64,000 nucleotides of DNA from Euphorbia lathyris. Lineage: Eukaryota > Streptophyta > Magnoliopsida > Malpighiales > Euphorbiaceae. The translations under genes and the position numbers were made by a program. The stretch lies in NCBI RefSeq assembly GCF_963576675.1, contig NC_088916.1, forward strand, positions 20,118,501 through 20,182,500, written 5' to 3'. Positions 2,492 through 53,767 of the stretch are shown piece after piece. The first letter of the stretch is position 1; each line of letters begins with the position of its first letter. The notes below the pieces were generated by a model, which saw only the letters and a program-made list of their open reading frames with translations, searched no databases and was not told the origin of the DNA.

Positions 2492-3581
2492 CCTGTATGG
2501 CCTGAAGCAAGATCCAAGAGCTTGGTATGAGAGGTTGACAAACTTCCTGCTGACCAGGAACTATGCCAGAGGAAAAGCTAACACAACCTTGTTCATTAAG
2601 AAAAAGGGTAAACATACCCTACTTGCACAAATCTATGTAGATGATATAATATTTGGTGCTACTGACGAATCTTTGTGTAAAGAATTTAGCAAACAGATGC
2701 AAACTGAGTTCGAGATGTCCATGATGGGTGAACTCAACTTCTTCCTTGGACTTCAAATTAAGCAAGGTAAGAATGGCATCTTCATAAGTCAGTCCAAGTA
2801 CACCAAAGAGATGTTAAAGAAATTCGATATGGAAGATTGCAAACCCATATCAACCCCTATAGGTACTGATACTGTCTTATGCAAAGATGAGAAGAGTAAG
2901 TCAATAGATAGTAAACTTTATTGAGGTATGATAGGCTCCTTACTTTATCTCACAGCTAGTAGACCTGATATACAGTACTCAGTATGTTATTGTGCAAGAT
3001 ATCAAGCTGACTCTAGGGAATCTCACTTAATTGCTGTAAAAAGAATTTTTAGATATTTGCAGAGCTCAGTTGATGCAGGTTTATGGTATCCAACCTCAAA
3101 TGACTTCACACTCATTGGATATACTAATGATGACTATGGACGAGATAAGCTAGAATGTAAAAGTACTTCAGGAGGATGTCATTTCCTTGGAAGCTGTCTA
3201 GTATCTTGGTTCAGCAAGAAGCAGTCATCAGTTGCCTTGTCTACAACTGAAGCTGAGTACGTAGCTGCTAGAAGCTGTGTTGCCCAAGTTCTATGGATTA
3301 AGCAACAACTTAAGGATTATGGAGTAAAAACAGAAACAATAGAGATCAAATGTGACAATAAGAGTGCCATTGATCTATCCAAGAATCCAATCCAACACAG
3401 CAGGATGAAGCATGTCAGCATAAGGCATCACTTCATCAGAGATCACGTACTAAAGGGAGAGATCAAACTGACCTATGTACCAACAGATGAATAGCTTGCA
3501 GATATCTTCACCAAGCCATTGGCTCGTGAACAATTCAACATACTAAGGGAAGCTATCGGTATGTCTAATCCTTTTCAATAA
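2492..3581 (+). pseudogene. Copia pol 3' fragment: reverse transcriptase end and RNase H, with two stops
   Basis: The frame opens at the insertion boundary with the copia RT signature YGLKQDPRAWY and continues through the catalytic YVDDIIFG box, KYTKEMLKKF, SRPDIQYSV, the RNase H stretch with STTEAEY, and the terminal ADIFTKPL motif, ending at TAA 3579-3581. All of it is in one frame, but TGA at 2922-2924 (before GMIGSLLYL) and TAG at 3492-3494 (in the place of the usual Gln before LADIFTKPL) interrupt it. The N-terminal RT, integrase, protease and gag are missing on this side of the LTR insertion. The aligned motifs make the identity certain; the stops make it non-functional unless read through. 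Confidence 0.93.
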
Positions 3582-3795: not shown

Positions 3796-4153
3796 GAGAT
3801 AAGAAATTCATCTACGTAGAACCAGGTACTCAGTATCACAAATGCTTCGAACTCTAGTAAAACTGAGTAAAACCTACTTGCACCATTAAATGCTAACACA
3901 TGTAATAAATAGCACCTAGGATAACGTAAGCAATAATGGCAAAACCCATGCGCCGAACGTGTCATAAATGACAGAATCTCTGTCGATTGAACATCCCAAG
4001 GAAAAATGGCTAGTCCAACGAATAGGATCGATTTAAATCTCTACAAATAGTGGAAGATTTCCCACTTAATCATCTTTACACTTGAATCCTTTGGCATTCC
4101 AATCTTTGTCTCTCTCTGAATTTCAAAATCCCTCGAAAATCTCTGAGAAGAAA

Positions 4154-24342: not shown

Positions 24343-27300
24343 ATGAAACGTCTTCTCCTCGTTTTTTGCTTTTATTTATCAGCTTGCTGTTTGATTGCCT
24401 CCGCGAGTGTGGTTTTGATTGGAGGCAACGTTACCTTGTCTTTTGATGATGTTGAAGCTAATTTCGGTGAGTGTTTTTTTTTTTCAATTCTTTTCTCTTT
24501 AGTTCTTATTGCTATAGGTGGAATAAATTAGCTGTTAACCCACTTAAATTATTGAATTGGGAAACTTGAAAGTTTCGATTTTGATACTCATGATTTTATT
24601 GGGGAAACATAGTGTAGTGGTTTCTTGTTGAAAATTAAGAATCACGGACTTGAGATTCTATGAATTTAAGTTTTATAAGCGCCGGAATGCTTGTTGCTTG
24701 TTCTGCTACCTAACGTGCCAATTCCTTGTTTTGCTGATGATTTTCAGCTCCACCAATTAAGAGCTCTGGTGAATGTGGGTCGTTGTATTTGGGAGAGCCT
24801 CTTGATGCCTGTTCAAATTTGAAAAATAAAGCTGGGAATGTTTCTAATAGTACTTCTCCATATGTGTTAATCATAAGAGGAGGATGTAGCTTTGAGGATA
24901 AAGTTAGAAGAGCACAACAAGCTGGGTTCAAGGCTGCAATTGTCTATGATGACGAAGATGATGGCATCTTGGTTTCAAGTAATGACTTTTTTCCCCATTT
25001 GAAAGTTAGTTATTGATAGTTTATAGCTGAGCATATAGAATGGGGATTGATTATTATTCATGTTCTACTTTTTTACGTTCAATCTGAGAAATTTAGTAAC
25101 ATGATGTTTCAACTGATCATGGAGAATGTGTAAATTTTATTTCCTTATTCTTTGAATTGGGATATGAACTATATTATTTCATGGATCTGCATAGGTGGTG
25201 GGCTTAAGACTTTTATGAGGACATTCAAGTTCGGTTCTGAGAAAAGATTGCTTATAGATTCTCAAATCGAATTACATATAAAACTTATGAATTGGATATT
25301 TTGTCAGCAATAGTTGGAGATGTGAAGTTGTGAACTATGAAGTACAACCTGACCATCCAATTTCTTAATAATATGGGATGTAAATCATTATTTTCGATTA
25401 ATAATAGTTGGACATGCACAGGATGGCTGCTGCCATGGCTTCAGAACCTAGTTGCATTGAGACCCTAATAGAATGGCAGCTGTGTACTATGGTTGAACCT
25501 TTTGGTTTTGCTATACCGTGAGGTGATTTAGGGTTTGGCATAGTTATTAAAGGCGCATGGCGCACTAAGGCGCTAGGGGTCCTGGAGCCTTGCCGCATGG
25601 CGCACGGTGATGGCGCGCGCCATAGCGAGACAAGGCGCACTTAAGAAAAGAAAAATTATAAAACTATAAAACTAACATAAAAATGCAATGAATACTAAAT
25701 CATGACAATATTAAGCATAAATAAGTTTTAAAATGAAAAATAAACCCCATGTTAGAAAGCTAAAGTTGAATACTAAATCCTAAGTTCTACGCCTCATCAA
25801 AACTCTCCAAATTCATCACTCATGTTGAATTTGAATTCCCTTGGCTGCTTTGTTTCTGTTTGAATTCGTTTTCTGTGTTTTGTTCTACTAAACTTCTTCC
25901 TCTTATGATAAGATTTTGTTGTTGCGTCTTCTAATTAATTCAAATATATAATCTCTCTCTTCCTTTTTAATATTTGTATTTTTTTTTTCTCATTTTGGAC
26001 CCTTAAGAACACTTATTCCATATACGTAACTGTCAAAAAAACCATAAAACAGTCCCTAACTCACCAAGGCGCGCCTTTGGCAACTGCCCCTTGGTGCAAA
26101 ATGGCGCACCAGGCGCGCGCCATGGTGGTTGCGCCACACCATGCGCCATAGGCGCGCCTTTAATAACTATGGGGTTTGGTTTCTTAGCTGAACTCTAATA
26201 ACTAAAAAGAATAATCCTTGGTTGAACTTGATTCTTATTCAACAATTGCTTTATGGTAGTGATCTTACATCCGTTCTAGGGGGCAGGGGGGACTCTGGAA
26301 ATTCAAAATGTTGTTATTTTGTCTTCTCACTTCATCAGTTGTTTGTTGCATTCTTTTTTGGTGGAATATAAATAGCAGTGGTACTTTACTCTCTTCTAAC
26401 AGTCAACTGAGTGGCTTTGTAATATCTAGGAGTATGGGAGTCAATTGTCAGAGGCAAGTGGATGTTTACATCTCTTTAATTGCTAAATTTACAAACACAG
26501 CTTTTGCTAAACTAGGAACTTCTCTCTTTTGGGCTAATAAGCAGTTGATGAGGTGGAAAATAATTTCTGAAGTTCGATATGATTGAAATGTTATTGAATA
26601 ACAGTTCAATTTTGTTTAACTCGTAACATGTTTCATGAAAGGAAACAAGCTTGAATTTGCACATGACCAATTCAGACCTAGAAGTTCTCTTCCTGCACTC
26701 TGCATCTCAGTGTTCGCTTTTATATGCTTCAAATTAGTAAAACCAGTGCTGCCCGAATTGGAGTTGCAAATCACTCTAAAATTATGAGAACTGCTTATGT
26801 CTACAATTCAACTAGGGAGAGGAGCAGATATGAGTGGAGGTGGTATATGGAGTTTTGATCCTTGATCCCATGTTTTTCTGAGTGGAGCATTTGACCACCA
26901 AACTTCGCCGGATTTGATCATTTATTCTCACTTTTCATAAGTAATGCATATTGTGTTGTCATTGCTGTGATTAAAATTTTGCTTGAGTTCCCAAAAGTTC
27001 TATTGAGGTAAAAGAACATAAAAATGATTTTTTAAGTGAGATATATATTAGGTTCTAAGCTACTATTTTATATAGTATATTTTCCAATTACTGAGTTTTG
27101 TATTTTTATTTTTTAGTGGCAGGGAGCTCGGATGGTATAAAAATCCATGCTGTATTTGTTTCTAAAGCGTCAGGTGAAACACTCAAGAAGTATGCTGGGT
27201 TGAGTGGTGTGGAGCTGTGGATAATCCCAAGCTTTGAAAATTCAGCATGGTCTATTATGGCAATCTCCTTTATTTCTCTTCTGGCCATGTCTGCAGTGCT

Positions 27301-30300
27301 GGCAACTTGTTTCTTTGTTCGTAGGCATCGTATAAGAAGAGAGCGTCCTCGCTCTTCTCGTGTCCGAGAGTTCCATGGGATGAGCAGCCGCCTTGTTAAA
27401 GCAATGCCAAGCCTAATATTCACTGCTGTTCTAGAGGATAATTGTACTTCAGTAACATGTGCCATATGCCTTGAAGACTATAGTGTTGGAGAAAAGCTTA
27501 GGATTCTTCCATGTCGACACAGTAAGTCTTCTTCCCCGTCCTTACTTTTTTTTTTTCTGCCTTTCCTCTTCTCTTATGCTTGTCCTTATGCCCATATGTC
27601 TGCTTTACTTTATATGATTCAGCATGCTCTTTTTCATGGATATGTTGTTTGATAGGTATAGAAATAAACTTGTATTGAGATAACACAAATTAGTCTTGAA
27701 GTCTTATGTATCAGAAGTGGTTGTTGCATGAAATGAAAAGTATTATAAAGTTAAGTTGAGTTGGAATTTCTGATATAGGCGAAAGGTTCCAGCAAGGTCT
27801 ACCTTCTCCTCCTTTTACTTGTGATTTTCCCTATTATTCTAGCTGTGACAGTTCACTGGAAAGGTGTAGGTAAACAAGCTTAGTTGCCACCGTCTTGTGA
27901 ACACTGAGTTAAGTTTTTCTAAAATTATGCGTTCCAGTTTACAGTCCCAAAGAACATCCATTTATCATAATATTTGATTAACTGAAACTTTGAAGCTAAT
28001 AGGCAGAGTATTTCTTTAGGCCATAACAAAATTCAGTATGCAGCCAACAACTATAAGAAAACTGAGAATCCATATGAATGTATGGCATATCCCTGTAATT
28101 GAATATCTAAGGGATCGTAACCATAGTTGTCAAATCGAGATTCGACTCGTGAATCGAAATCCTATTTTGTGAATCGTACTCGTGAATCAAACTGAATCGT
28201 AGGATTGAGTTCAAATTCATAATATTATAAAAATAGAACATTTACCATGTTGAAGTCAAAATATTATCAAATATTAGTCTAGAAATGCAATTTTTATGTC
28301 AAAAAAAAAAAAAAAGAATCATATCAACCAAGTACTTAAAATTCAAATCCAATGCAAATGCAATCCCAATTCTGTTTAATAACTTAGTAGAGACGAAGAG
28401 TTTGGATTTCTGACTCTGTTTTTTTTGCCCTGTTGTCAACTTGATAACGATGGAATGAAGCTAGTTTTAGTTGATAACTTAATAAATAACAATCGGACTA
28501 GAGAAGAGTGAGTTTAGTAGTTAGTGTTGTTTAAGTTTTTGATGAATGGAGATGAAGATCCTACTCGAAATAGAGCTGAATCGAATCGAATCGTATGATT
28601 CGAATGGGAATCGTAAGATTCTGTATAATTTAGATTCGGCTCGAAATAAAGCTGAATTGAATCGAATCGTAAGATTCGTAAGATTCTAACAACTATGGTC
28701 GTAACTGTATGCATCTTGAGTGGACTATTTTCCAGTGAAGGAAAAAGATGGAGGATGCAACTAAAATTAGTGGGATGGTGAAAAAGAAATAAGCAGCTGT
28801 GCAGTTTGATGCATATGCAGTAGGTTCTATGTGAAATTTACATAGTATATATGATGGGAACTGTGTGTAATGTTCGAAAAGTTTGGGTGGCAAAATGCAA
28901 ATACTGAACTTGTCCATAAAATCAGTGTCATTGAAGCAAGATTGCTGGACGTTTATAGAAAATGGAAATATACAGAGTATTTTCGGATCCCATATTCATT
29001 AGGAAATTGGATCCAAGTACTGTGCAAGGACAACTACATAAAAAAATTTGTTTGAGCTAGATTAGACTTTTGTTGTTCATGGAAGAAGCCTAAAAGTAAA
29101 GAGTAGACCAGAATTTGGTATATAGGAAGAAAATTCAACTTGTTTGATGAGAATAGGGACTCAATAATCTGTTATCCATCCTCGATGTTCGGCATTCCAA
29201 CAATTCGTGCAACATTTAAGATGAAGTGTGGTGAAAATCAAGCTATATACATGTACTTTGGACAATAAAGCAATGTGAAGAAGTTAATAAGGATCAAAAG
29301 GGAATGTTTTTCAACATGAAATCCTTTCATGAATCAAAGTAAGATTTTTCCGGCATGCATGTCTATTTAAAGGATGAGACAACAACAACAACAACAACAA
29401 AGCCTTAGTCCCGAAATGATTCGGGGTCGGCTAACATGAACCATCATATAAAACCGTGAAATCAAGTCGTGTCAGCAACACAAATTCGCTCCCTCCACTC
29501 CGTCCTATCCACTACCATATTTTCCTCAATGCCCAGTAAACTCATATCACTCTCGATCACCCTCCTCCAAGTTTGCTTAGGTCTTCCCCTACCCCTCACC
29601 ACTACATCCCTTTGCCACTCTTCGCTTCTCCTAACCGGCGCATCAAGCGCTCTACGTCTCACATGGCCAAACCACCTTAGTCGGTTTTCTCTCATTTTAT
29701 TCTCAATAGATGTGACCCCTACTTTTGTCCTAATTATTTCGTTACTCGCCCGATCCTTTCTCGTATGACCACACATCCATCTCAACATACGCATCTCCGC
29801 CACCGACATCTTATGGATGTGGCAGTGTTTCATTGCCCAACACTCCATACCATATAACAATGCTGGTCTAATTGCCGTCCGGTAGAATTTCCCCTTCAAT
29901 CTATTAGGCATGCCGGGGTCACAAAGGAAACCCGTAGCACTCTTCCACCTCGACCAACCAGCTTTAATCCTATGAGCAACATCTCCATCTACTTCTCCAT
30001 CAGTTTGGATAATAGATCCTAAATACCGGAAGCAATCCGAGGCCTGAACAACTCTCCCATCTAGGGTGATTGTCCTTGCCTCCCTACTCCTATGGCCGCT
30101 AAACTTACACTCCAAATATTCCGTCTTACTTCGACTCAACTTAAAGCCTCTAGATTCTAGAGTTTGTCTCCATAGTTCCAACTTCCTCTCCACTCCTTCT
30201 TTCGTCTCATCAACCAACACAATATCATCTGCAAACAGCATGCACCATGGTATACCATCTTGAAGTGAACTTGTTAGTTCATCCATAACGATGGCAAAAA

Positions 30301-33300
30301 GAAATGGGCTTAGTGCGGAACCTTGATGCACTCCAATCGTAATAGGAAACTCTTCAGTCTCACTAGTACGTACACTCGTGCATGCTCCCTCATACATGTC
30401 CTTTATGATGTCAATATATTTCCGCGAAATGCCTTTCCTTATCAAGGCCCACCAAAGTACTTCCCTTGGTACCCTATCATATGCTTTCTCCAAGTCAATG
30501 AAAACCATATGCAAGTCTTTCTTCTTATTTCGATAGTGCTCCATTAATTGTCTCATTAGATAGATGGCTTCCATAGTTGATCTTCCTGGCATAAAGCCAA
30601 ACTGGTTTTCCGAGATCTTCACCGTCCTCCTTAGCCTTTGTTCGATCACTCGCTCCCAAAGTTTCATAGTGTGACTCATTAATTTGATTCCCCGATAGTT
30701 GGCACAATCTTGGACATCGCTTTTGTTCTTATACAAAGGGATTAAGATACTTTTCCTCCATTCTGATGGCATCTTATTGTTTCTCCAAATTTTGTTGAAG
30801 AACGTCGTCAACCATTCGATTCCTCTTTCTCCCAAACATCTCCAAATCTCAATAGGGATGCCATCAGGTCCTACTGCTTTCTTCAACTTCATCTTACTTA
30901 ATGCCACATTGACTTCACCTTTTTGAATTCTCCGCAGGCATTCATGATTTATCATATCGTGATGGATACTTATATCTCCCACATCTTGTCTGTGATCTCC
31001 ATTAAATAAGTCATCAAAATAGGACCTCCATCGTTCCTTGATATCCTTATCTCCAACTAGGACTTGCTGGTCCACATCCTTCACACATTTAACTTTTCCG
31101 AGATCGCGCGTCTTCCTATCTCTCATCCGAGCAATTCTATATATGTCTCTTTCCCCTTCTTTCGTATCCAATCTGGTATACAGATCCCGATTCACCGTTG
31201 TTCTAGCATCTCGTATGACCTTTACTTCCCTTTTAGCCTCTTTGTATTTTTCGTAGTTCTCGTCACTCCTACATTTACCCAACATTTTATAGGATTCTCG
31301 CTTACTCTTTACTGCTTGTCGTACTTCTTCTGTCCACCAAGATGTGTCCTTACCCGGTGGCATTCTACCTTTAGATTCCCCTAGAACTTCCTTCGCTACT
31401 TCCCTTATACTATGCTCCATCTTAGTCCATATCGAATCTATATCTAAATCCATATTACAAGTCCAAACATCTTTTTTGGTCATCTCATCCACAAATTTTT
31501 GTTGATTCTCTCCTTGCAATTTCCACCACTTAATCTTAGTCTCTACTTGTGGTGTTTGTTTTCTTATACATTTCCTACTTCGAAAATCAAGCACCACTAC
31601 TCTATGTTGGGTTGTCGTACTCTCACCAGGGATCACCTTACAATCAATATAACTCTTTCTCCAAGCACTCCTTACTAAGAAGAAGTCAATTTGGCTCGCA
31701 TTACCGCCACTCCGATACGTCACTAAGTGGGATGTTCTCTTCATAAACCATGTGTTCATGATACTCAAGTCATAGGCTGATGCGAATTCCAAAATATCAT
31801 TTCCTGCTTCATTCTTATCTCCAAAACCATACCCTCCATGAACACTCTCAAACCCATCTCGCCTAGAACCCACGTGTCCATTGAGATCACCCCCCAGTAC
31901 CATTTTTTCATCCCTAGGACCCTGTTGCACCACTTCCTCTAAGTCCTCCCAAAAAGCTTGTCTTATAGAGACATCTAATCCTATTTGTGGCGCATATGCA
32001 CTAATGACATTCACAACCTCATCCCCTATCACTTGCTTGACACTCATAATTCTATCGCTCTTCCTAGACACCGCTACTACATCATCAATATACTCCCTAT
32101 CAATAAGAATACCTACTCCATTTCTACCCTTATCCTTTCCTAAACCAAAGCTTATAACCCCAAGGAGCTATCTCTCTAGCCTTGGCTCCAACCCACTTGG
32201 TTTCTTGTAGGCACATTATATTTATTCTCCTCCTCTTCATAACATCTACAATTTCAACTAATCTTCCTGTCAAAGAACCTATGTTCCATATCCCAAAGCG
32301 TAACCTACTACCCTTACCCCTACCCCTACCCCTACCATTACCGTGGACTAGCTTATTTACCCGCAACCCTTGCATATTTGACACCACCCCCGGGTCCTGG
32401 GGTGGCGCGCCGCTTCGGGGCGACGACCTAACAACCCTTGCACATTTATCACTACACCCGGGTCTAGGAAGTGCAGCGCGTCGCTGAGTAGGGAACACCC
32501 CAACGGTATTTATAGTATGGTTCATGTCATAAGATGTGGCTAAGTTTTACGCTGGCCGCCACAAACCTACCGCAACCCTCCTCCTTTGTCCGGGCTTGGG
32601 ACCGGCTGTAAAAGCCACCAAGTGACCCTCACAGGCGGAGTTTAAAGGATGAGAAATGAAATTAAATTAAAATGTTAACAGCAACAAATATATGTGCATG
32701 AAAATGGAAACGGAGCTTCAATTAACGAAGTTGATAAAAAATCAATTGATTTCTTGAGAGTTCCTTTGTGAGAGTTTCTCTGTGTTAGAGAACCGCAATT
32801 TGAATAGTCAGGTTTGTTCTTGATTGTTAGAGGCTGGATTAGGGTCTTTACAACTTAGTTTTGCAAGGGTTTTGGTCTGTTCAACCTCGGTTCGTCAGCT
32901 TTCTTGGGGAGTCATATCTGGTTATCAAGGCTTTATTCCTTGTGGGTTCACATTGTTTAATAAACATCAATCTAAAAAATCGCAACAATTTGAGTTGCTT
33001 TTGGCAGTATACCTTATCTGCGTCAAATTTGAGTTGCTTTTGCCAGTATGCTTCTTGGGCTTGTTTGCATGGTCCAGTTCAATCCAAAACCAACTTTATG
33101 CGCAAATTAGCCTGCTACATTGAAATGTGGTCAATTTAGTTCAGGTTTCAGTTAATCAGTAAAACTGGGTGCATTGTTAATGACTAATTTGGCCCAAAAT
33201 AAGTCCTATGAAGTTATTGATATGATTCGTTTAATCTCAATGTTCATATCTACTAATTTAGCATCTTAACATTTTTCATTTACAATGACTATTTTTTATA

Positions 33301-34017
33301 GCTTCATTTTAGAGAAAAACTGTGAATTTGATTATAACCGATGATAGGGTGTTGCATTGTAATGTATTCTGTAAAATCTGAGGTAGTGTTTATCTTCAAT
33401 AAGTTATATTGATAATTCTTAATTTTGGTATCTGTCCAGAATTTCATGCCATGTGTGTGGACTCTTGGCTTACTTCATGGAGAACATTTTGCCCTGTATG
33501 CAAGAGAGACGCAAGAACTAGCACTGGCGATCCACCAGCATCAGAATCGACCCCATTGCTTTTGTCCAGCGCAGCTTCCTTGGCTTCTTCGTCTATGTTG
33601 TCATCCTTTAGATCTTCATCATCATTGGCCATACGAATTGATCCAGGCACATCTCGGTCCCCTTCAGTTTCTCATATTCCCTCTCTTCCTTCTTATTCTG
33701 CTACTCCTTATCTCCAGCACTCTCTTAGATCATACAACCAATCCCCTTCGTTAAGCATTAGCCACAGCTCAGCAGGTCTTCGGCATGTATCTTCCCAGAG
33801 GTCTATTGCTTCACATTTAGTATCATCGCACTCGTTGGGTTACCCGTCAATGTCACCTCTTAATGCAAGATATATGTCACCATATATTCCAAGTCCAAGC
33901 AATGCCTCACCGAGTTTCATAAGTTCTTCAAGTCATCAACCGCGGCCGCTTCATTGTAGCGAATCTGCTGCAACATTCTCTCCGTTTGCATCAGCTCATT
34001 CGCTTCCAGATTGTTAA
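24343..34017 (+). CDS. RMR: RMR-type receptor: PA domain, transmembrane helix, RING-H2 (vacuolar sorting receptor)
   Basis: Four exons: 24343-24466, 24748-24978, 27117-27521 and 33440-34017, all with GT-AG introns and consistent phase. They give 445 residues, close to the length of the longer Arabidopsis RMRs. The order is: a signal peptide (about 1-22, Leu/Cys-rich); a protease-associated lumenal domain to about 155 with [14 protein letters not shown] and [20 protein letters not shown]; a transmembrane helix (about 164-186); a basic stop-transfer [11 protein letters not shown]; a RING-H2 with C233, C236, C251, H253, H256, C259, C271 and C274; and a long Ser-rich cytosolic tail. RMRs bind C-terminal sorting signals of storage proteins in the Golgi and carry them to the protein storage vacuole. 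I start at ATG 24343 rather than the in-frame 24322 because it gives a clean signal peptide. Intron 2 (2.1 kb) holds a MITE and intron 3 (5.9 kb) holds a MITE and a full LINE. Confidence 0.93.
25539..26171. mobile_element. MITE in RMR intron 2, GGCGC-rich terminal repeats
   Basis: Perfect terminal inverted repeats CATAGTTATTAAAGGCGC... and its complement end the 633-bp element. An exact 8-bp target duplication GGGTTTGG flanks it (25531-25538 and 26172-26179). Both arms are rich in GGCGC/GCGCC words (GGCGCGCGCCAT), while the middle is AT-rich. The duplication length fits hAT or MULE; the long GC-rich arms favour a MULE. Confidence 0.88.
28121..28698. mobile_element. MITE in RMR intron 3
   Basis: Ends CCATAGTTGT...ACAACTATGG, flanked by TCGTAA(C) on both sides (7 exact bases, 8 of 9 over nine). 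The arms are built of GAATCG(A/T) words: GATTCGACTCGTGAATCG at left, GAATCGAATCGTA and AAGATTCGTAAGATTC at right. The outer TIR resembles those of the elements at 25539 and 43088, but the sub-terminal repeats are different. Confidence 0.8.
29380..32640 (-). mobile_element. Full-length RTE-type LINE in RMR intron 3, antisense
   Basis: A perfect 14-bp target duplication TTTAAAGGATGAGA (29366-29379 and 32641-32654) defines both ends. On the minus strand the element starts GTGAGGGTC at 32632-32640 and has a GC-rich 5' region. It carries one long ORF and ends with the conserved 3' sequence that includes AATCATTTCGGGACTAAGG and a (TTG)n tail at 29380-29400, as in plant RTE elements. An intact duplication and a nearly open ORF mean a recent insertion. 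Confidence 0.95.
29462..32525 (-). pseudogene. RTE LINE ORF: endonuclease and reverse transcriptase, one frameshift
   Basis: On the minus strand, ATG 32525 opens a frame with a GR-rich linker followed by the start of an APE-type endonuclease ([19 protein letters not shown]). At about 32135-32145 the frame is lost, and the next frame takes over ([12 protein letters not shown]) and runs 869+ residues without a stop to 29462. Endonuclease motifs continue as [26 protein letters not shown] and [11 protein letters not shown]. Reverse transcriptase blocks follow: [57 protein letters not shown] and the catalytic FADDIVL. A net two-base loss explains the frameshift. Except for that single lesion the coding region appears complete. 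Plant proteins derived from this endonuclease are often mis-annotated as craniofacial development protein 2-like. Confidence 0.92.
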
Positions 34018-39407: not shown

Positions 39408-40253
39408 GGGCTAATTACAAATCTAGTCCAACTAAAATGGCTCATTTACATATCTAATCTACTTTGCTTCCATCTTACCAAATTAGACCATTTCATGAAC
39501 TTTGGGCAAAATTACCCTTAGTTCTATTGATCGATGGATCTGCTCCTGCTTCTTCTTCTTCTTCTTCTTCTTCTGGTTCTGCTTCTTCTTCTTCGATTTC
39601 TGATATCAATCGTTAGCGATTTTTGAGATTTTTGAAGTATTATGTTCAATTTTCCGTAGAAATGGTATGTTTTTAGCTTATACGCCTGCTTTCTCGCTGG
39701 TCTTGCCTCTTTCTTCATCTGTAATGGTATCGTTTCAATTTTCTATATTTTCCATCATTTTTCTTCATTGTTGTCGTATTTGTGACGAAATTTGTCGCAT
39801 TTCGTCACAAATGTGACAATAGTAGTTGCATTTCGTCGCAAATGCAACAACACTTATCGCATATGCGACAACTCTTGTCGCATTTGCGACGAAATGCGAC
39901 AATTGTTGCTGCATTTTTGACGAAATGCGACAAAGTTTGTCACAAATGGGACAACAATGGATGAAAATGGTGTAAAATAGAGAAAATTGAAACGATACCA
40001 TTATAGATGAAGAAAGAGGCAAGACCAGCGAGAAAAGCAGGCGTATAAGCTAAAAACATACCATTTCTACGGGAAATTGAACATAATACTTCAAAAATCG
40101 CTAACGATTGATATCAGAAATCAATCCATCGATCAATAGAATTAAGGGTAATTTTGTCCAAAGTGGATGAAATGGTCTAATTTGGTAAAATGGAAACAAA
40201 GTAGGTTAGATATGTAAATGACCCCTCTTAATTGGACTAGATTTGTAATTAGC
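39408..40253. mobile_element. Long foldback element H
   Basis: Arms of about 350 bp are nearly perfect inverted copies: GGGCTAATTACAAATCTAGT with ACTAGATTTGTAATTAGCC, TATCAATCGTTAGCGATTTT with AAAATCGCTAACGATTGATA, and GAAAGAGGCAAGACCAGCGA with its complement. The centre (39780-39950) is a cluster of smaller inverted TTTGTCGCATTTCG / GCGACGAAATGCGAC units. The left arm carries a (CTT)n run at 39548-39595 absent from the right arm. No target duplication was found. Confidence 0.8.
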
Positions 40254-40471
40254 CATAAATTATTTCTCAAATTCACTCCATTTATCAAACATTAAAGGTA
40301 AAATTGATTGACTTCCAACTTTAGGGATAAAATTGAATCATTTTAGACGTTAGGTAAAATTGTTGTTGATCCAAAACGTTTAACCGTTTTTGGAAAGATT
40401 AAGGTTAAAATGTTGAGGTTAAATTTAGTTTTTATCTCATTAACTGTGATTCAGAAGTTAGATTTCCATAA

Positions 40472-40612
40472 TTTCTAGTAAAGTACGATGGGGTTAGCAA
40501 AGGATTTAAGAATGGGGAAAGCATTGCTGCAACTGCGCCCCTTTCTTCTAAAACCAGAACCTTTCTTCTTCCTCCTCCTTCTTCAAAACGATTCCGACTC
40601 TTCGCCACCAAG
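40472..40612 (+). other. First, leader exon of FHIT with open non-AUG frame
   Basis: A donor at 40612/40613 (ACCAAG|GTATTC) pairs with the acceptor at 40734 (TTTTACAG|ATG). In the frame of the FHIT ATG the leader is open from 40472 and reads AATAPLSSKTRTFLLPPPS, then SKRFRLFATK. This is rich in Ser, Arg, Pro and Leu like a transit peptide, but it has no ATG. The two ATGs present (40488, 40512) are in another frame and would clash. Plant FHIT proteins can carry N-terminal extensions, so either a non-AUG start is used or this is simply a 5' untranslated exon. Confidence 0.45.
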
Positions 40613-40734: not shown

Positions 40735-43700
40735 ATGTCAACGGAATCCTACAAGTTCCGCCCTTATGGAATAGACGCCAAGGAAGTATTTTACTCCACC
40801 CAGCTTTCCTTTGCGTTGGTCAACCTCCGCCCTGTTGTTTCTGGTATTGTTCCTTTTCTCTTCCCCTTCTATTTTCTCCTCTTTCATGTTCTTCTCTTCG
40901 CTTTTGCAGTGCTTTAATTTATGTTATTACGCTGCATTTTGATGTATTTCACATATAAATAAAAGTATAAACTCTCCCTTGAGCAGCATGGGCGTATACA
41001 GGGGGGCCTGGGGTGCCCGGCCCCTCCGGCCGCCGAAATCACCATGGTCATGAATAGTTTCGCCCCCCTCAAATATTAGTGTATATACACTCTGTGTAGT
41101 AATATTTCATTGTTTAAAGGTAGATGAGATAGTTAAAACACTTGTTTCTTTTTAAAAGGTCCTAGGTTCAATTCCCCCTAACCTTAATTTATTTTAGAAA
41201 GTGTTTATTTATTTAAATTTTATTTTTCAATAATTATAAAACTATGTTACCATTATTAATTAATTAATTTATTTTTATAACACTTTTGAACTCATTTTTA
41301 TTATGTCTTTTCCATTAAAAAAATTAATTTCTTATTTTTGAGACTCAAACAACTTAATTTCTAAATTAAATTTTAAAATTTTAAAACTAAAAATGTTAAA
41401 ATGTTAAATTTTTTTAAAAACTAGTATTGAACTAATAAAAAAAATTAAATATATCCCATTACGTGTTTGGCTTGTCCAAATTTCAAAATTTCAATATTTT
41501 AGACCTATTAGGTACTACATAAATCCAAATTTCTAATTATTTTAGGCCTGTTAGGCATTTCTAAATCCAAATTTCTAATTTTTTTTGGCTTGTTAGGCCT
41601 CTCTAAATCCCAATTTCTAATATATTTGTTTGACTTGTTAGGCCTTTTTAAATCCAAATTTTTTATTTTTTTGGCTTGTTAGGCCTCCATAAATCCAAAT
41701 TTCCAATTTTTTTTTCCTCTTAGGTATCCTTAAAATTGGTTCTTGACCATTCAAATTATAACACGCATATATAAAAAAAAATTAAGCAAGTTCGAATTAG
41801 TAAAAAAAAAATCTCGAATGCAGTGTAAAATCGCCCCCCCCCCCCCCACCGACTAATCCTGTATTCGCCACTGGCAGCATTGTAGAGTTCACTTTGTGTT
41901 TACCTGGAAAATTTTAATCTTTAGAACTACCATCTTGAAAATTAAGGGGGCGTTTGGTTCACAATGGGTAAGGAAAAAAGAATCAAGAAAGGGAAACTAA
42001 AGGAAAGGAAAGGAATAAGCATTCATACCCCTGTGTGTTTGGATATGTTTAGGAAAGGGAATGCAATTCCACCATATTCCCTTTGTGGATGTTTGGTTCA
42101 AATAGGGAATCAAAACTATTTTTTTTTATTTCATATATAATCAAAAAAATTCAACTCTTTTACTATAGTTTCTATAAAACGTGAAATAACTTCATATATA
42201 ATCCCAAACAATCCAAAACGTCCTTCACTTGCTACCCTTATTGATAATAATATGAAGTTCATAAAAGTTAAAATTAATCAAAGAAAATGCATAAATATTA
42301 TATTTACAAAGAAAATAATTATTTTAAAATAATTAAAAATAAATATTAAAACTCAATAATATGATAAAAGAAAAAAATTTGGTCAAAATTATTTTTCAGG
42401 GTAAAAAGGTAAAAATAAATAATTATAAGGATCAAAAGTGAAATTAATCTAGTGATAAAAAAATATAAGGATTAAACAAAAATAAAAAAAGTAAAATTTA
42501 GTCAAAAAATATTTTTTGAGTAAAAAAATTAAAAATATATAACAAAAATGAAATTAATCCAAAGATAAAGAAATGTAAAAAAAATATAGAGACCAAAATA
42601 AAATAGGGAGTAAAGTAAAATTTTATAAGGAGTGTAGGTTAGAGAGAGAGGGGAAAGGGAATAGAAAACCTTAGGGGGAAATGAGGAATGGGTTAGAGGA
42701 GTTAGGGGTAAACCCAAAACTAAAAGGGGTAAAGGGAATCATTTAATTAGCAAAACAAAATGAAGTCTCCCCTTTCCCTTACCCTTTCCTAAAACCCCCT
42801 AATAGTAAATTTCCGTGCTTGTTTCTTCCTTTTTGTGCTGACCCTATGGTTCATTTTTCTTTTTCTTTGCAGGTCATATCCTTTTCCAGTTAAAAGTTTC
42901 TTTGAGATTATGCAAACATTCATCTATCATGTGTCCATAAGTAAACTTATATTGCTTTAACCTTGGTTAGTGCTTCCATTTTGTTTTAGATGTCAGTCAT
43001 ACCTCCGATTGATTAATGCGTAGTGCTATCGTTGTCAAAGGTGTAAGCTATGCAGTATTAGTAAAGATGCATGCTAAAGCAATGTGCCCAGTTGTTAAAG
43101 GCGCAAAGGGGCCTGGAGCCTAGTCTCAAGGTGCAACGCAAGGCGGGCGTCTGAGGAACACAAACAAAACAAAACCAAGTAAAAACATAATACTAAATCA
43201 TAAATGTCAAAAACACCAAGTTAACTTCATACTTCATAGAGACATTAACATATGCTTACCTAACTATTGTTATTAAACTAATAACCATTCATTGTCACTT
43301 GATATTCTTATGTGTGTCAGTCGCGGTTTCTGTTTGAGTGGAGTGGAGGAGACTCTTCTTTACGTGATTTCTCTTAATCCCTCTGTAGTCTTTTTATATT
43401 TAGTTATATGTCTTGATATTAGATGAAGGGTTAAGATTAATCTTATTTAAATTAGCTTAGTGGTTGAGTTTAGTCAAACATTTGTTTTACACAAAACAGT
43501 AAAAAAAAAAAAAACTATTGAAAACACAGAGGCGCACCTTGATTCAGGTTCTGAGGCCCAGTCGAGGCGCACAAGGCGAGAGCCTTTTGAACAGGGCCTC
43601 ACTTTCTGCAATCAAGGCTCACTGCCTTGAGCTTTGAGTGAGGCGCGCCTTTAACAACTGTGGTAATGTGTAATCAATCCCGTTATTTATAAAGTACTGG

Positions 43701-45237
43701 TAAAGAAAATACAACAGCATTACATCAGAGGATGCTTGGGATTTCGAAACTCTATTTAATAACTGCAATTCAATTTGGTTGGCTTGACTTGATTTACATG
43801 TGCTAGTCTGCCCAAGGCGCCAAGTAAAGCGTTTTGTTGATCTCAGTTCTGATGAGGTTAGTGATCTATGGTCCGTGGCACAGAAAATTGGCGGTCGGCT
43901 TGAGAGCTACCACCAAGCAACCTCGCTCACATTTACAATCCAAGTAAGATTCCGTTTTTTATACTCCATTTTCTTTAATCTGATGATCATTTTGCCATTG
44001 TTGTTTCTGGTATTTCTATATATACATGAGTAGTTGTTTCAATAAGACAGATGTTCAATGTTGGGGTAATTTTGTTCACTCCATATGCAATAAATAGCAC
44101 AAAGTAAGAACTTTACCCGCTATAAAAGTTTGACCCCAGAAAGAGATTGGAACGGAAATCCCGGTTTAAGGCTGTTAGTGCGGTTGGCTTACATGGAAGT
44201 GGTGGAAAATGCCGGTCCGAGGGTTACCCGCGATTGGTAATGGTATAACGAGAAGAGGGTTAGGGAGACAAAGTTACGCTCTGGGTGGGTAGCGCAGCGC
44301 ATCTGTTTCTGGTACAGAGGCGACGAGGGTGCTATGTGTAAGGGGTTGAGTTTGGCCATAAGCAAACTCAACCCCAAGCATTGGCAAAGCTACGAGGAAG
44401 CTTCGACAAGGAGTGGTGAATGGTACATATCAACATACGCTGACAGTGGAGGCCAAGTTGGTATAAGAAACACTATAGGGGACATGGACTACTTTCGCGT
44501 TGGATCTCTACCCCACTGGGTCAATAGTCGGTACTGGTTTAAGTGATCCACCCTAGTCCATTAGGGAATAGAAGAGTTGGGTATTCGGCCTTCGTGAAAG
44601 GATGCGAATGTCTCCATAGGGTAGACAAACGCATTGACCTAGCCCCGTGACACTATGCAATTAAAAGCATCATGATTACATTGTCGTCTCCGTTTCTTTT
44701 TGCGCTTTTGACTACGAATAGAGATGCATCATTTTCTTAATCTTCATTGCTTGGCTAGAAAGGACATATTACTCCAGCAACTATGCAACTCAATCTATGA
44801 CCCTTAATCAGTTCTTTCGTGCCCTCATTTTTACGTGACGATACACTAACAGCTAACGACTTGAGGCATATTTTATAGTTTTAGATACAGTATATATCAT
44901 GTAACTAACAAAATGAGATATGTTTGTTCATGTATTAGGATGGTCCCGAGGCAGGACAGACTGTGGCTCATGTTCATATCCACATTCTTCCGAGGAAAGG
45001 CGGTGATTTTCAGAACAATGACGAGATCTATGACGCAGTAAGTTGAAACATTTCATTGAAATTAAACTTTTTATGCAGTTGGAACTCTGAATTGATGGTA
45101 TTTGGTGTGGTTGAGATTGATGGGATGGGAAGGAGAAGGAATTGAAAGAGAAGTTGGATTTAGATAAGGAAAGGAAGGATAGAAGCATGGAGGAGATGGC
45201 TCAAGAGGCAGCTCAATATAGATCACTTTTCCTCTAA
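40735..45237 (+). CDS. FHIT: Bis(5'-adenosyl)-triphosphatase, FHIT-type HIT hydrolase
   Basis: Coding exons: 40735-40843, 42873-42875, 43798-43943, 44939-45037 and about 45133-45237, giving 153 residues (human FHIT has 147). It shows [40 protein letters not shown] and the histidine triad [14 protein letters not shown] (H97, H99 and H101; the middle one is the nucleophile in this family), with a charged C-terminal helix ending in QYRSLFL. It cleaves Ap3A and related dinucleotides in the cytosol or organelles. The Gly-His junction (residues 37-38) requires the 3-nt exon and the AT-AC intron listed next. The last acceptor is uncertain (45132 or three bases later); the better-looking AG at 45113 would give an early stop. 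Introns total about 4 kb and carry three transposons and an unidentified insert. Confidence 0.9.
40990..41873. mobile_element. hAT-like non-autonomous element in FHIT intron
   Basis: A 7-bp direct repeat GCAGCAT flanks it (40983-40989 and 41874-41880). The ends GGGCGTATACAGG and CCTGTATTCGCCACTG are inverted with few mismatches, and sub-terminal G and C runs (14 C at 41834-41847) pair with GGGGGGCCTGGGG. The interior has four tandem-like phrases of the type GGCTTGTTAGGCCT...AAATCC(A)AATTTC (41470-41730). Confidence 0.75.
41946..42799. mobile_element. PIF/Harbinger-like MITE in FHIT intron
   Basis: GGGGGCGTTTGGTTCA at the left and a C-rich end (AAAACCCCC) at the right, flanked by TAA on both sides (41943-41945, 42800-42802), the usual target of PIF/Harbinger elements. 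A second GTTTGGTTCAAATAGGGAA phrase lies at 42090. The purine-rich arm (AAAGGAAAGGAATAAG) pairs with the CCCTTTCCCTTACCCTTTCC arm. Confidence 0.75.
42873..42875 (+). other. Candidate 3-nt micro-exon (GTC) of FHIT
   Basis: TTTTCTTTGCAG|GTC|ATATCCTTTT: a strong U2-type acceptor is followed after three bases by a perfect U12-type donor. The three bases complete Gly37 (G+GT) and start His38 (C+AT), giving PVVSGHVLVCP, which matches the PVVPGHVLVCP of animal FHIT. Leaving them out keeps the frame but would change Gly-His to Asp and pair a GT donor with an AC acceptor. Confidence 0.7.
42876..43797 (+). other. U12-type AT-AC intron of FHIT
   Basis: The 5' site ATATCCTTTT matches the minor-spliceosome consensus fully. 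The 3' end GGCTTGACTTGATTTAC has a CTTGAC branch-point match with the branch A at 43787, ten bases from the AC end, the usual U12 distance. There is no polypyrimidine tract and no AG at the boundary, which rules out an ordinary acceptor there. The intron is 922 bp and holds a 576-bp MITE. Confidence 0.82.
43088..43663. mobile_element. MITE in the U12 intron, GGCGC-type terminal repeats
   Basis: CCCAGTTGTTAAAGGCGC at the left and GGCGCGCCTTTAACAACTG at the right are inverted. The flanks CAATGTGC and TAATGTGT share six of eight bases. It belongs to the same family as 25539-26171 by TIR and by AAGGCGCACC / GGTGCAACGC sub-terminal words. Confidence 0.75.
44094..44690 (+). pseudogene. Unidentified coding-like, GC-richer insert in FHIT intron
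   Basis: One frame is open from 44094 to TAA 44544-44546 except for TAA at 44238-44240, about 150 codons. The codon composition is rich in Trp, Arg, Gly and Glu (for example [19 protein letters not shown] and [15 protein letters not shown]), quite unlike the AT-driven random ORFs nearby. The 140 bases after the stop form several short stems (CCCTAG..TTAGGG, CCATAGGGT). It is not an FHIT exon: including it would disrupt a protein that is complete without it. I recognise no family. Its isolated, protein-like, structured-3'-end character would fit an old captured cDNA, for example from an RNA virus, or a host gene fragment; this is speculative. Confidence 0.45.
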
Positions 45238-46136
45238 TTTTACTATCAGACTCCCCCGTCGAGAAAGAGAACTAATCCGAAGGCAAAAGGTCGAGAAACT
45301 CAACGCCATTATCCTTGAAGATGAACTTGGAGTTGGGAGTCGGGCCTTCTTTTCGCATTATGGTGAAAAATTGGATTCAATTGTCAACTGGAGACATTAT
45401 TTAAAGACAATATGTTTTGGAGAAAATTGAATGTATAAAGGTATCCTTGTGAAGTAGTTTTATTTATCTAAGTATCTAAATCCCTATTTTTCCGTTATTT
45501 TTTACTTTGAAAACGTCATATTTACCTCCTAATCTTGCTTAAATTGACTTATTAAATCTCGCAACTTTCTTACTTGGTATATTTATAATTTGTTGGGTAT
45601 TAATTTATCCAAAATCTCCCCTTGTCTTGTCATATTGATTTTATAGAATAAATTGATCATTTTAAGTTAGTTTAGGGAGTAAATATAATATTTTAAAAAT
45701 ATATATCGGACAATTGACAATTCTAGACCATTACATGGAGATAGAAATGTATAAGGCTTTCTAAGTATGTATATTTATTTCTTTTTGTAACGAATTAGAT
45801 CTAATGAGAATGAGTTAATATACCTACTTGGCATATTTATTTATTTTTTGTTTAGGTTCTTAATGTAATTTTTTTCAATTTTATCCTGAGTTTAGTATTA
45901 ATTACTTTTTTTCATTTTAAGCTTTCGAGGTAAAAAAAATGATATAATTTAATGAATCTTATGAAAAATAAGAATTATTAATAAAGAGAAATAGATGACA
46001 TTTTTGTTTGTTTTTTTATAAATTTAATACAAATTAATTATTTTCTTAATATATGTAATTTGATCAAATGTGACAAATAATATGAATAAGATAAATTTAA
46101 ATTAGATTAATTGGTTATAAATTAGTTTGATTAATG
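45238..46136. other. 3' flank of FHIT and AT-rich DNA
   Basis: About 45238-45430 is less AT-rich and is probably the 3' untranslated region. From 45450 to 46136 I see only AT-rich DNA with no coding potential. Confidence 0.4.
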
Positions 46137-47170: not shown

Positions 47171-49065
47171 CTAAACATCAGCATATCCTCCTTCATATGT
47201 ACTCAATCCCTCGTGTCCCTCATTTTCCATGCCTTCATCCTCTTGCTCCTCTTGCCCCTTTTCCACCTCTTTCCCCTTTGCAACCTCTTGCCCCTTTTCC
47301 TCCTCTTGCCCCTTTTCCAAATCGGTAAACACTTGGTCATAATTACACGGCAGACCATCCACATGGTTTACTAGATGTTCATACCATGAGCTTTCTTTCT
47401 CCATGTCTTCAGCTGTAAGTTGCGTGGCATTTGGTTTTATACCCGACTAAAAAATACAAATGTACAAATAAACAAGTCAGTCAAATGTATAGCACAATAG
47501 TGACACATATAGGCACAATGACTGGTCAACTTACTTCAAATATGGCTAGAACTTTGGGCAATTTAGCGATACCGGTCTTTTTTCATCGTAGCCATCGTGG
47601 AATGTGAGTGCCTTTCTTCTCATACCATGCGTGGGTGACATCCCATACTTCGAGCAACCAAGCAGGTGACAAAGTTCCAATTCATTATTTATGCATACTA
47701 CCAACATTTCTAGTATACAGAATATACACACATCATACCTGAAATACGTGTGCAAAACCATATAGGTTGTATGAGACACGGTTAGTCCTAAAATGATCCC
47801 TATGAGCGACCAATTGATCGATTCGGTCTTTTCCACCAATTATCCCATTAACAAGAGACCTGTAGGTCACATCCCAGCCCAAAACCCCCAATGGGAACTC
47901 GTTAAACAATGTTGGAAATTCAGCAAGTTCCAACACCCAAGGAAGAGCTTGTTTCGCGGCAGTGTTATCCAACACACAGCCAATGACAAAATACAACATG
48001 GCAAATGAAACTGCATCCTGATCAGATTCATTCTTCCAAACAGTTTGCAGCATAATTGTGTTCACGTCTTTAAAGGTTGGTGTAGGGATGCCTGGAAAAA
48101 ACTTATTCCTAAATCTATATGGCTTATTTATCGCACTAAACCTTTCGGTAAATGCTTCCATGTCTCCAAACCATAACCCACTTAGGAGTCCAAACTCCCA
48201 ATCCCCAAATCTTAACTCAACACCTCTAACTTTGAAGCAAAGCTCCTTGGGTTTGAGGTCTTCACGTATGATCTCCCTTGTTAAAAGGGTATGACAGAGG
48301 ACTCCTGCAAATACTGTATTGGTCATATCCAAATACTGTCTGAAGCAACTCTTCCTAAATAGATTTACTTGGTTTGGTGTTAACACGTCCTTTATATGTT
48401 TTGATGCTTCTAGGTTACACCTAACTATGATGACGCTTTCCGTTCCAAATGCTTGTTTGTATTTATATTCAGATTTTTTCTTGGTTTTCTTCTTCGAAGG
48501 AGAGCCATGCTCATCTCTCTTCCTCTTGTCTGCACGATCATGCTGAAATTTATTGTAGACATATCATCAGGGAATATACAATTAAGCTAATTATAACGTT
48601 GAGCTAGAATGAGCTAGTATGCTAAAATAAGAGAGTTATCGACAATTAGGTCGTCGATATAAATGTTCTATCGACAATAGATCGTCGATATGAATGTTCT
48701 ATCGGCAATAGATTGTCCATATGAATATTCTATCAACAATTAGCTCGACGATATGAATGTTCTATCGGCAATAGATTGTCGATATGGATGTTCTATCAGC
48801 CATTAGGCTGTCTATATCTATATATTATCTACAATTAGGTTGCCGATAGAACATACGTATCGGCGCATTTCAACCAAACCGAATGACTTCCTAACACCAG
48901 ACGAACCCAGATAAAGCCTAACACCAGAAGAAGTAAACGAAACGAAACGAAAAATTCCTTCTCAAACCCAACAAATGTACATACAAATAAAGTCAAGTTA
49001 TTTACCCTCTTTTTCGTCCTTCCTTCTGAATTCGATTCGTTGTCTGAGCTTCGTGTTCTCGCCAT
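47171..49065 (-). pseudogene. DUF1985-domain gene of the MULE, damaged
   Basis: Minus-strand exon 1 (49006-49065) encodes MARTRSSDNESNSEGRTKKR. A good GTAAAT donor joins in frame to exon 2 (47739-48542), which has a Lys/Arg-rich nuclear-type stretch (KKKTKKKSEYKYKQAFG) and a DUF1985 domain: CFKVRGVELRFGDWEFGLLS, GLWFGD, AMLYFVIGCVL and YNLYGFAHVFQ. The next coding part (47546-47668, WLLEVWDVTHAWYEKKG) has a TGA in frame and no good acceptor. An acidic EKGQEE-rich end is at 47171-47404. DUF1985 genes accompany Ulp1-protease genes in plant MULEs; here no protease part is visible. The function in the element is unknown. Confidence 0.72.
48638..48835. repeat. 31-32 bp tandem repeat in intron 1 of the MULE gene
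   Basis: About six units of the form TATCG(A/G)CAATAGATCG(T)CGATATGAATGTTC. Each contains short palindromes (ATCGTCGAT, GACGATATG). Related CGTCGATATC...GAATATCGACAT words recur at 46847-46925 near the other end of the element. Confidence 0.8.
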
Positions 49066-52543: not shown

Positions 52544-53767
52544 CTACTCAGATTTGTATGCAGCCAACATAAGTTTTGCCTGCTCTAATATCAACTCATT
52601 CCGCTTTATGAACAGCTCTAGCTCAGCCACGTGCATTTTTCTCCACTTCTCTTCCATCTCTGATTTTTTCGCTCCCTCCACCATATCCAGCCCTCTCTTT
52701 ATCACATAATCCTCCATTGATGCTACATCTACACCTCTATCAAACTTAGCAGTCTCTTTTGAGCCGACATGGGTTTCCATTTCGGTTTCCATCCTCTCCG
52801 CCTTTTCACCTTCCTCCATAACTACACTTGATTCTATCTTCGATGGTGCCACGCTCATTGGTGTCGAGCTCTTGCTTCTTCCATAAATTCCTTCGCTGCC
52901 CCATATCTTCTTCGACAAATCAAAAGTTGTTTGATCATGCGGTTTAGAGAATGTTTTATCTTCACCATTTTTCCCTTTCTTTGCATGATTCTCAAATTTC
53001 TTCTTCAACCTCCAAACCTTATCCTTCAACTGGGTCAAAGCAACATCAAAATGCAGTGATTTTTTTATAAAATCATAAAATGCATTCATGTCCTTGGCAG
53101 GATCAAATCCTTTCTTTTCAATAAAATCAATGATACCCTTCAAAAGTACAATTTCATCATCCTCACTCCATAACCGTTGAAATAACAGTTTCTTTGTATC
53201 CTCAGACTTCTCAAAAGCTCCATTGGATTCCGAATCCTTCATCTTTGACCGCTTGGAGTCTTTTGCATCCTTCCCAACTTCACTAACCCACTTTTGAAAT
53301 AACGGTTTCTTTGTATCCTCAGACTTCTCAAAAGCTCCATTGGATTCTGAATCCTTCATCTTTGACCGCTTGGAGTCTTTTGCATCCTTCCCAACTTCAC
53401 TAACCCTCTTGGTAGTACATTTCCCAGGATCAACTGTGGATGCTGAGGTTTTGGATCTAGACTTTGCGCTTTTGGCTGAAGTCCCCTCCATTGGCTTAGA
53501 AGCTATAGGTTTGACTTTCGAGGTCGGAACATCCTCAGATTCAGAATCAGATTCCGTTTCAGAATCGGAATCTGACTCGGGCTTTGCGGAAGAATCTGGC
53601 TTTTTGACAGCTTTCGCAGTTTGGGTTAGTTGAGGTGGTGAAGGAGACCCTTTTTTTTGCATCTGTTCATCTTCAGATGAAGATTCTTCTTCACCACTTG
53701 AGGTAGTTTCCTCTTCTGAAGAAGAAGCCGGAGGGACATCTATAGGAGTTGGGCGTTTTGGAACCAT
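52544..53767 (-). CDS. GeBP/Storekeeper-type DNA-binding protein (DUF573)
   Basis: A single-exon 407-residue protein. Residues 1-100 are acidic and Ser-rich (SSSEEETTSSGEEESSSEDE, SDSDSETESDSESEDV). Residues 120-197 are two consecutive 39-residue repeats starting VSEVGKDAKDSKRSKMKD. The DUF573 DNA-binding domain follows at about 198-290: LWSEDDEIVLLKGIIDFIEK, ALTQLKDKVWRLKKKFENHA and FDLSKKIWG. A Leu-rich C-terminal helix (VAELELFIKRNELILEQAKL) ends it. This is the layout of GLABROUS1 enhancer-binding protein and potato Storekeeper, plant nuclear regulators active in trichome, cytokinin and storage-gene control. Which family member it is cannot be told. The start is the first ATG of the frame, followed by PKRPTPIDVPP, typical for the family. 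Confidence 0.92.
   Translation of the reverse strand: MVPKRPTPIDVPPASSSEEETTSSGEEESSSEDEQMQKKGSPSPPQLTQTAKAVKKPDSSAKPESDSDSETESDSESEDVPTSKVKPIASKPMEGTSAKSAKSRSKTSASTVDPGKCTTKRVSEVGKDAKDSKRSKMKDSESNGAFEKSEDTKKPLFQKWVSEVGKDAKDSKRSKMKDSESNGAFEKSEDTKKLLFQRLWSEDDEIVLLKGIIDFIEKKGFDPAKDMNAFYDFIKKSLHFDVALTQLKDKVWRLKKKFENHAKKGKNGEDKTFSKPHDQTTFDLSKKIWGSEGIYGRSKSSTPMSVAPSKIESSVVMEEGEKAERMETEMETHVGSKETAKFDRGVDVASMEDYVIKRGLDMVEGAKKSEMEEKWRKMHVAELELFIKRNELILEQAKLMLAAYKSE

Follow-up and report, generated by a model that had tools for sequence, protein, structure and literature searches.

Plants contain coding exons of a few nucleotides (nt), and they also contain introns of the minor, U12-type class with AT-AC ends. 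In the present analysis, a predicted three-base coding exon, GTC, is described in an FHIT-type gene (bis(5'-adenosyl)-triphosphatase) located on the plus strand of a 64,000-nt stretch of Euphorbia lathyris DNA (contig NC_088916.1, positions 20,118,501 to 20,182,500), called the window below. The FHIT frame very probably passes through this exon, with a U2-type GT-AG intron upstream of it and a U12-type AT-AC intron downstream.

The closest described systems are the plant microexons of 1-15 nt, exemplified by the 1-nt exons of APC11 and VPS55. As described in PMC8831610, they resemble the FHIT exon in being tiny coding exons that resist aligners and are often misannotated; they are conserved in flowering plants, as the FHIT exon probably is. 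The survey took in introns of the GT-AG and GC-AG types only, whereas the FHIT exon is followed by an AT-AC/U12 intron, outside that filter; the GTC exon would therefore escape the survey. FHIT, U12 and AT-AC are not mentioned in its main text. The positions of plant U12-type AT-AC introns are often common to animals (PMC2426677). In vertebrates, exon bridging between U12 introns and the major spliceosome has been proposed (PMC8034651); the FHIT arrangement differs in that an upstream exon of 3 nt leaves no room for it. Recursive or nested splicing, as presented in PMC13149111, is alike in that taking out one intron creates the full context for splicing the following one. Unlike recursive splicing, the FHIT gene has two complete, adjacent introns of different classes and keeps three coding bases, with no zero-length site and no nesting. 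Stwintrons are a comparable case of nested splicing.

No prior description of the three-base exon was found among the papers listed on plant microexons, AT-AC/U12 introns and FHIT, a search outside which lay subscription papers, supplements and U12 databases. FHIT has no mention in the main texts of PMC12409088, PMC2426677, PMC10639083, PMC7367187 and PMC4892727; for AT5G58240, a gene-list mention was found. AT-AC introns have been described, as have microexons as short as 1 nt; their combination with a 3-nt exon was not met in the literature searched.

Gene identity and exon layout

An initial annotation, made from the letters of the DNA, had labelled the gene FHIT, and homology bears this out. 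The spliced protein contains a HIT domain (PF01230, E 4e-26 in a Pfam search). Its closest homologue among the matches listed is the E. lathyris FHIT-like protein P0001, with 95% identity, and human FHIT chains match at E 9e-45 and also carry PVVPGHVLVCP. Exons 2, GTC, 4 and 5 joined give 119 stop-free codons (MSTESYKF...IYDA), which include the histidine triad HxHxH in the form HVHIH, encoded in exon 5. A second FHIT copy was not found inside the 64-kb window by tblastn. The parts of the gene, in window positions, are as follows.

40488..40612, plus strand: exon 1 from the first ATG; ATGs at 40488 and 40512
40735..40843, plus strand: coding part of exon 2, MSTESYKF...VVS and base 1 of the Gly codon; ends TCTG
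40844..42872, plus strand: U2-type GT-AG intron, 2029 nt, GTATTG...TTTTTCTTTGCAG; two transposon-like inserts occupy most of it
42873..42875, plus strand: predicted three-nucleotide exon GTC, bases 2-3 of the Gly codon and base 1 of the His codon
42876..43797, plus strand: U12-type AT-AC intron, 922 nt, ATATCCTTTT...TTTAC
42876..42885, plus strand: U12 5' splice site ATATCCTTTT, matching the consensus
43781..43788, plus strand: branch-point-like GGCTTGAC; branch A at 43787, 10 nt from the intron end
43798..43943, plus strand: exon 4, starting ATGTGCTAG; HVLVCPRR...TIQ
43805..43806, plus strand: in-frame AG within exon 4; its use as acceptor for the donor after 40843 would yield a GHVL-less protein
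44939..45037, plus strand: exon 5, ending ...IYDA; histidine triad HVHIH
45116..45237, plus strand: exon 6; stop of the P0001-like frame at 45235-45237

Splice signals around the three-base exon

The Gly-His pair is split as G|GT C|AT over three exons. Directly 5' of GTC stands a U2-type acceptor, tttctttgcag, and directly 3' of it stands ATATCCTTTT. The initial annotation had placed GTC between TTTGCAG and a full match to the U12 5' site; the coordinates, 42873-42875, are exact and the donor is perfect. U12-type introns have the 5' splice site RTATCCTT, an AC or AG terminus, and the branch consensus TCCTTRAY about 10-20 nt before the 3' end. RTATCCTT is present in ATATCCTTTT at 42876 and the terminus is AC: exon 4 (ATGTGCTAG at 43798) is preceded by ...CTTGACTTGATTTAC, the 3' end of the intron reads TTGACTTGATTTAC, and the boundary is TTGATTTAC|ATGTG. 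The AC boundary and the CTTGAC motif 10 nt away are both present as described earlier. Over its full length the branch-like GGCTTGAC agrees with the consensus TCCTTRAY at 6 of 8 positions, its A lying 10 nt from the end, a weak match. In its ATATCCTTTT donor and AC terminus, and in a candidate CTTGAC-type branch motif some 10 nt before that terminus, the intron is like plant U12 AT-AC introns. It had also been claimed that no AG is available near 43797. None occurs in the 67 nt from 43731 to 43797, but the in-frame AG at 43805-43806 lies only 9 nt into exon 4.

Within the 2,954-nt interval between exons 2 and 4, the GTC site is the sole occurrence of AG|GNC|AT, and neither AG|GNC|GT nor AG|GNC|GC occurs. 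AG|GNC|ATATCCTT appeared in 0 of 3,000 dinucleotide shuffles of the interval, and in 13 of 3,000 when up to one mismatch was allowed. ATATCCTT by itself is common, with five occurrences in the window against 4.6 expected by chance; the evidential weight therefore rests on position, frame and peptide.

Joins that yield the conserved peptide

Single-intron joins were enumerated with donors at 40790-40904 and acceptors at 43600-43834. Seventeen are in frame and stop-free, and none of them gives SGHVL, which rejects a single-intron join within these ranges as the source of GHVL. The join from 40844 to 43806 is the sole GT-AG/GC-AG one that preserves VCPRR; it yields VVS-VCPRR and loses GHVL. VCPRR is also preserved in four AT-AC single-intron joins, with different inserts.

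Two-intron joins were formed with a middle exon of 1-60 nt and GT-AG, GC-AG or AT-AC ends. The peptide was obtained in 7 of 316,581, among which the GTC join alone has a GT-AG intron. The other six, which were rejected, need two AT-AC introns, the first starting with ATTGTTCCT at 40846, with a 1-nt exon C between them; their donors are never ATATCCTT, the nearest being ATATTCCCTT at 42074. The earlier statement that the peptide can arise only through GTC is nearly right, these six joins being the exceptions; none of the other joins tried that give the peptide has both a GT-AG intron and the U12 consensus donor. The three pieces, their splice signals and this uniqueness among the joins tried are observed directly. 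The interpretation first proposed, a 3-nt exon with U2 and U12 AT-AC neighbours, draws support from the sole such join giving the peptide and from imprints in other angiosperms.

Imprints in the protein models of relatives

FHIT homologues were pooled from three protein searches (the best 120 each of 1366, 1119 and 272), giving 200 entries. The first query carried GHVL, and the later queries were GHVL-less and GHIL-bearing, so that deviant entries are enriched. Deviation was scored by a plain GHVL[VI] test, and genera were collapsed by hand from source names. GHVL[VI] is present in 141 of the 200 homologues and 59 deviate. In the first search only, 27 of the 120 listed homologues deviate at the GHVL site; in the same 120, the exon 4|5 motif is intact in 119 and the exon 5|6 motif in 112, the one and eight misses being substitutions and not splice errors. 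All 13 mRNA-sized entries (12 on contigs <2 kb and one TRINITY entry, presumed to be transcripts) carry GHVL; of the remaining 187 entries, 128 do so (one-sided Fisher p=0.009), and in the first search only the counts are 12/12 and 81/108 (p=0.04). Protein conservation and the imprints described below call for GTC as a predicted coding microexon.

The deviant models fall into recognizable forms. In the GHIL imprint (14 entries in 10 genera from monocot to asterid: Glycine, Lupinus, Trifolium, Acacia, Crotalaria, Bauhinia, Acer, Papaver, Tanacetum and the sedge Rhynchospora), PGHIL is followed by divergence; GGT CAT ATC CTT, that is GTC read through into ATATCCTT, encodes GHIL. Seven of these entries were found before GHIL was used as bait and seven with it. 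The xHVL imprint accounts for 35 of the 59 deviant entries, in 26 genera. A boundary of the form ...nnA C|AT demands that the x codon end in A, and in 35/35 entries it is able to do so (p=8e-4 by genus). The x fits YAC in 24 of the 26 genera, with p=7e-7 against FHIT protein composition, a value to be taken as a guide only since genera are not independent. The GNVL imprint comprises 12 entries in 11 genera (Hevea, Malus, Gossypium, Helianthus, Deinandra, Acer, Lolium, Theobroma, Citrus, Glycine and Cucumis), and would be explained if three mRNA bases were placed on the GTA of the U2 donor. Two further models appear to continue past GTA, Cynara P0194 (PGNSIT) into GTAAY and Salvia splendens P0145 (PGMRFN) into GTATG; other models of the same species, P0033 and P0016, have GHVL.

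Read in this way, the GHIL and xHVL imprints appear to show the U12 side of the exon, and the GNVL imprint the U2 side. Both sides are seen in Glycine max (P0128 with GNVL; P0159 and P0166 with GHIL) and, across two species, in Acer (P0087 of A. negundo and P0182 of A. saccharum). The Poales genera Lolium and Rhynchospora have one imprint each, and eudicots have both kinds. Outside the GHVL site there is no difference between P0061 and P0153, two models of Medicago truncatula, while the Jatropha models P0008 and P0101 differ at that site and in the leader; such pairs indicate that some variants are annotation, not biology. Taken together, the protein models are indirect evidence that GTC|ATATCCTT...AC with a preceding U2 donor exists in other angiosperms, and the architecture is probably angiosperm-wide.

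The data fit insertion of a U2 intron 3 nt before an existing U12 intron. On this view an old U12 intron would have interrupted the His codon at C|AT before a U2 intron, itself ancient, was gained at G|GT, 3 nt upstream. Since the imprints reach from eudicots, which have both kinds, to two Poales genera with one apiece, the insertion, if true, is old and not local. Human FHIT presumably has an intron after coding-sequence position 103, at the same C|AT, and animals would then share the U12 position; no support for this was found among the papers listed, and it is not used as evidence.

Order of splicing and the GHVL-less form

An exon of 3 nt would leave no room for U2AF at CAG and a U11/U12 complex at ATATCCTT simultaneously. 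If both complexes cannot sit together, the introns must be excised in succession. Removal of the U2 intron first, which would leave an ordinary junction between exon 2-GTC and the U12 intron, is somewhat favoured because U12 introns are generally spliced less efficiently (PMC2952598).

If the U12 side fails, the U2 donor may instead be paired with the AG lying 9 nt into exon 4, producing an in-frame protein without GHVL. Three Euphorbiaceae models have this form, as from the 43806 AG, namely P0002 of Euphorbia peplus, P0037 of Ricinus (isoform X2) and P0101 of Jatropha, and they look as such an escape would be expected to look. GHVL corresponds to residues 37-40 and shares two of the five residues of a beta strand (39-43) predicted by AlphaFold2 for a Salvia homologue (mean pLDDT 78). 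Because of this overlap, the GHVL-less isoform is probably impaired.

Condition of the window copy

An open conserved frame from leader to C-terminus, as expected of a functional gene, is not found in the window copy. Measured against the frame that protein P0001 implies, the leader is a net 13 nt short; the ATGs at 40488 and 40512 therefore do not share the FHIT frame, and their open reading frame (ORF) stops within exon 2. The start of exon 6 is shifted by 5 nt relative to the P0001-implied frame, unless the AG ending at 45132 is used; TRF reported no tandem repeat behind this offset in 45000-45300. None of the 141 normal homologues has R9 or S36. A translation start at 40735 together with the acceptor at 45132 could conceivably bypass both frame breaks, though a decaying duplicate or assembly errors are more likely. 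The window copy is probably a decaying duplicate, one in which all the splice signals persist. Decay of this copy would leave the architecture untouched, as intact relatives appear to share it.

Competing explanations

A continuous exon in other plants (...TCTGGTC|ATATCC), with an upstream intron private to this Euphorbia copy, is quite improbable. The AHVL, VHVL and GHIL models on their own do not require the upstream intron. GNVL in 11 genera, however, calls for GTA and not GTC after CCTG; GTAAY and GTATG follow CCTG in the Cynara and Salvia splendens models, whose species also have GHVL; and both sides of the exon are visible in Glycine max and across the two Acer species. It is very unlikely that the normal mRNA omits GTC, the major spliceosome alone joining the 40844 donor to the 43806 AG so that the family FHIT lacks GHVL. 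P0002, P0037 and P0101 are exactly of this form, and the join is the only in-frame GT-AG/GC-AG single-intron one that keeps VCPRR; yet the form occurs in 3 of 200 entries, whereas GHVL is present in the closest relative P0001, in the other Jatropha model P0008, in every mRNA-sized entry and in human FHIT chains. The GTC-skipping form is most readily explained as a minor isoform or as a shortcut taken in annotation. The window locus could, again, be a pseudogene in which the microexon is a chance or decayed arrangement never spliced in this manner. The two apparent frameshifts relative to P0001 and the unusual R9 and S36 are in line with this, but the splice signals, the exon 2-5 frame and the peptide are all intact and agree with the imprints in other species, which makes this explanation extremely unlikely; the copy is likely to be decaying, but its arrangement is unlikely to be due to chance.

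Several observations count against the GTC exon with its two classes of intron. At the locus itself, the branch motif is imperfect (6/8) and the window copy carries apparent frameshifts. Among the homologues, P0121 (K) and Citrus P0187/P0197 (E) misfit YAC, P0074 (LYVL) and P0167 (YANVL) are without any C|AT boundary, and the 12 GNVL entries misfit that boundary unless the donor-GTA explanation holds. GNVL and GHIL are interpreted here as annotation errors, and GNVL would require a non-canonical forced alignment. The AHVL, VHVL and GHVL-lacking models may also derive from a continuous CCTGGTC|ATATCC and would then support the AC end, not the U2 intron. Conservation is read from predicted proteins only, in genera that are not independent, and the two sides seen in Glycine and in Acer may come from different loci. 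As to the order of removal, plant microexons with ordinary flanks, for which consecutive removal has been deduced, lose the downstream intron first more often (PMC8831610), which runs counter to the favoured U2-first order.

Transposon-like inserts and surroundings

Three inserts lie within 40990-43660, two upstream and one downstream of GTC, and occupy much of both introns; without them the introns would be some 300-350 nt each, an estimate that depends on approximate insert edges.

40990..41873, no strand assigned: transposon-like insert, presumably hAT-like; short terminal inverted repeats GGGCGTATACAGG / CCTGTATTCGCC, with GCAGCAT direct repeats on the flanks; edges approximate, by eye
41946..42801, no strand assigned: transposon-like insert with GGGGG...CCCCC ends and TAA flanks; edges approximate, by eye
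43089..43660, no strand assigned: transposon-like insert in the U12 intron, with perfect 16-nt terminal inverted repeats CAGTTGTTAAAGGCGC

Immediately 5' of the FHIT gene is a long inverted repeat (39409-40254) that would form a long hairpin if transcribed. Its arms are 39409-39539/40124-40254 (92% complementary), 39622-39692/40034-40104 (96%) and 39690-39862/39863-40035 (87%).

Elsewhere in the window, 27095-27652 encodes a partial RING-type zinc finger (PF17123), and 33403-34017, which has no Pfam match, contains a C-x-x-C stretch that by eye resembles its continuation. Between the two pieces lies a minus-strand ORF for a reverse transcriptase (29462-32167, PF00078). A GeBP-like DNA-binding protein ORF at 52544-53767 on the minus strand (PF04504) has an internal near-duplicate stretch, VSEVGKDAKDSKRSKMKDSESNGAFEKSEDTKK. 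The ORF pieces at 2490-3494, which we take to be Copia-like, gave no match in a Pfam scan of the 2925-3494 part; they are followed by an ORF at 4070-5875 that matches the plant transposon protein domain PF20167. A DUF1985 ORF is located at 47733-48563 on the minus strand (PF09331); this domain occurs in plant transposons.

Implications

If confirmed, the FHIT exon would be a natural test of how two spliceosomes share an exon too small for definition across it. It would also be a recurrent source of misannotation in a widely conserved enzyme, where 27 of 120 first-search homologues deviate at one site. Microexons adjoining AT-AC introns would be absent from a survey restricted to GT-AG and GC-AG introns (PMC8831610). 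Minor-spliceosome mutants of Arabidopsis exist (PMC4892727) and allow direct tests of which intron leaves first and of what becomes of the exon when U12 splicing fails.

There is about an even chance that the wider picture is correct: flowering plants would then have an ancient, obligatory 3-nt exon in FHIT that engages both spliceosomes in turn, and it would represent a hybrid U2/U12 AT-AC class of microexon, invisible to GT-AG/GC-AG surveys, of which further members may have gone unnoticed. Through the order of removal and the GHVL-less escape, FHIT activity would then reflect the capacity of the minor spliceosome.

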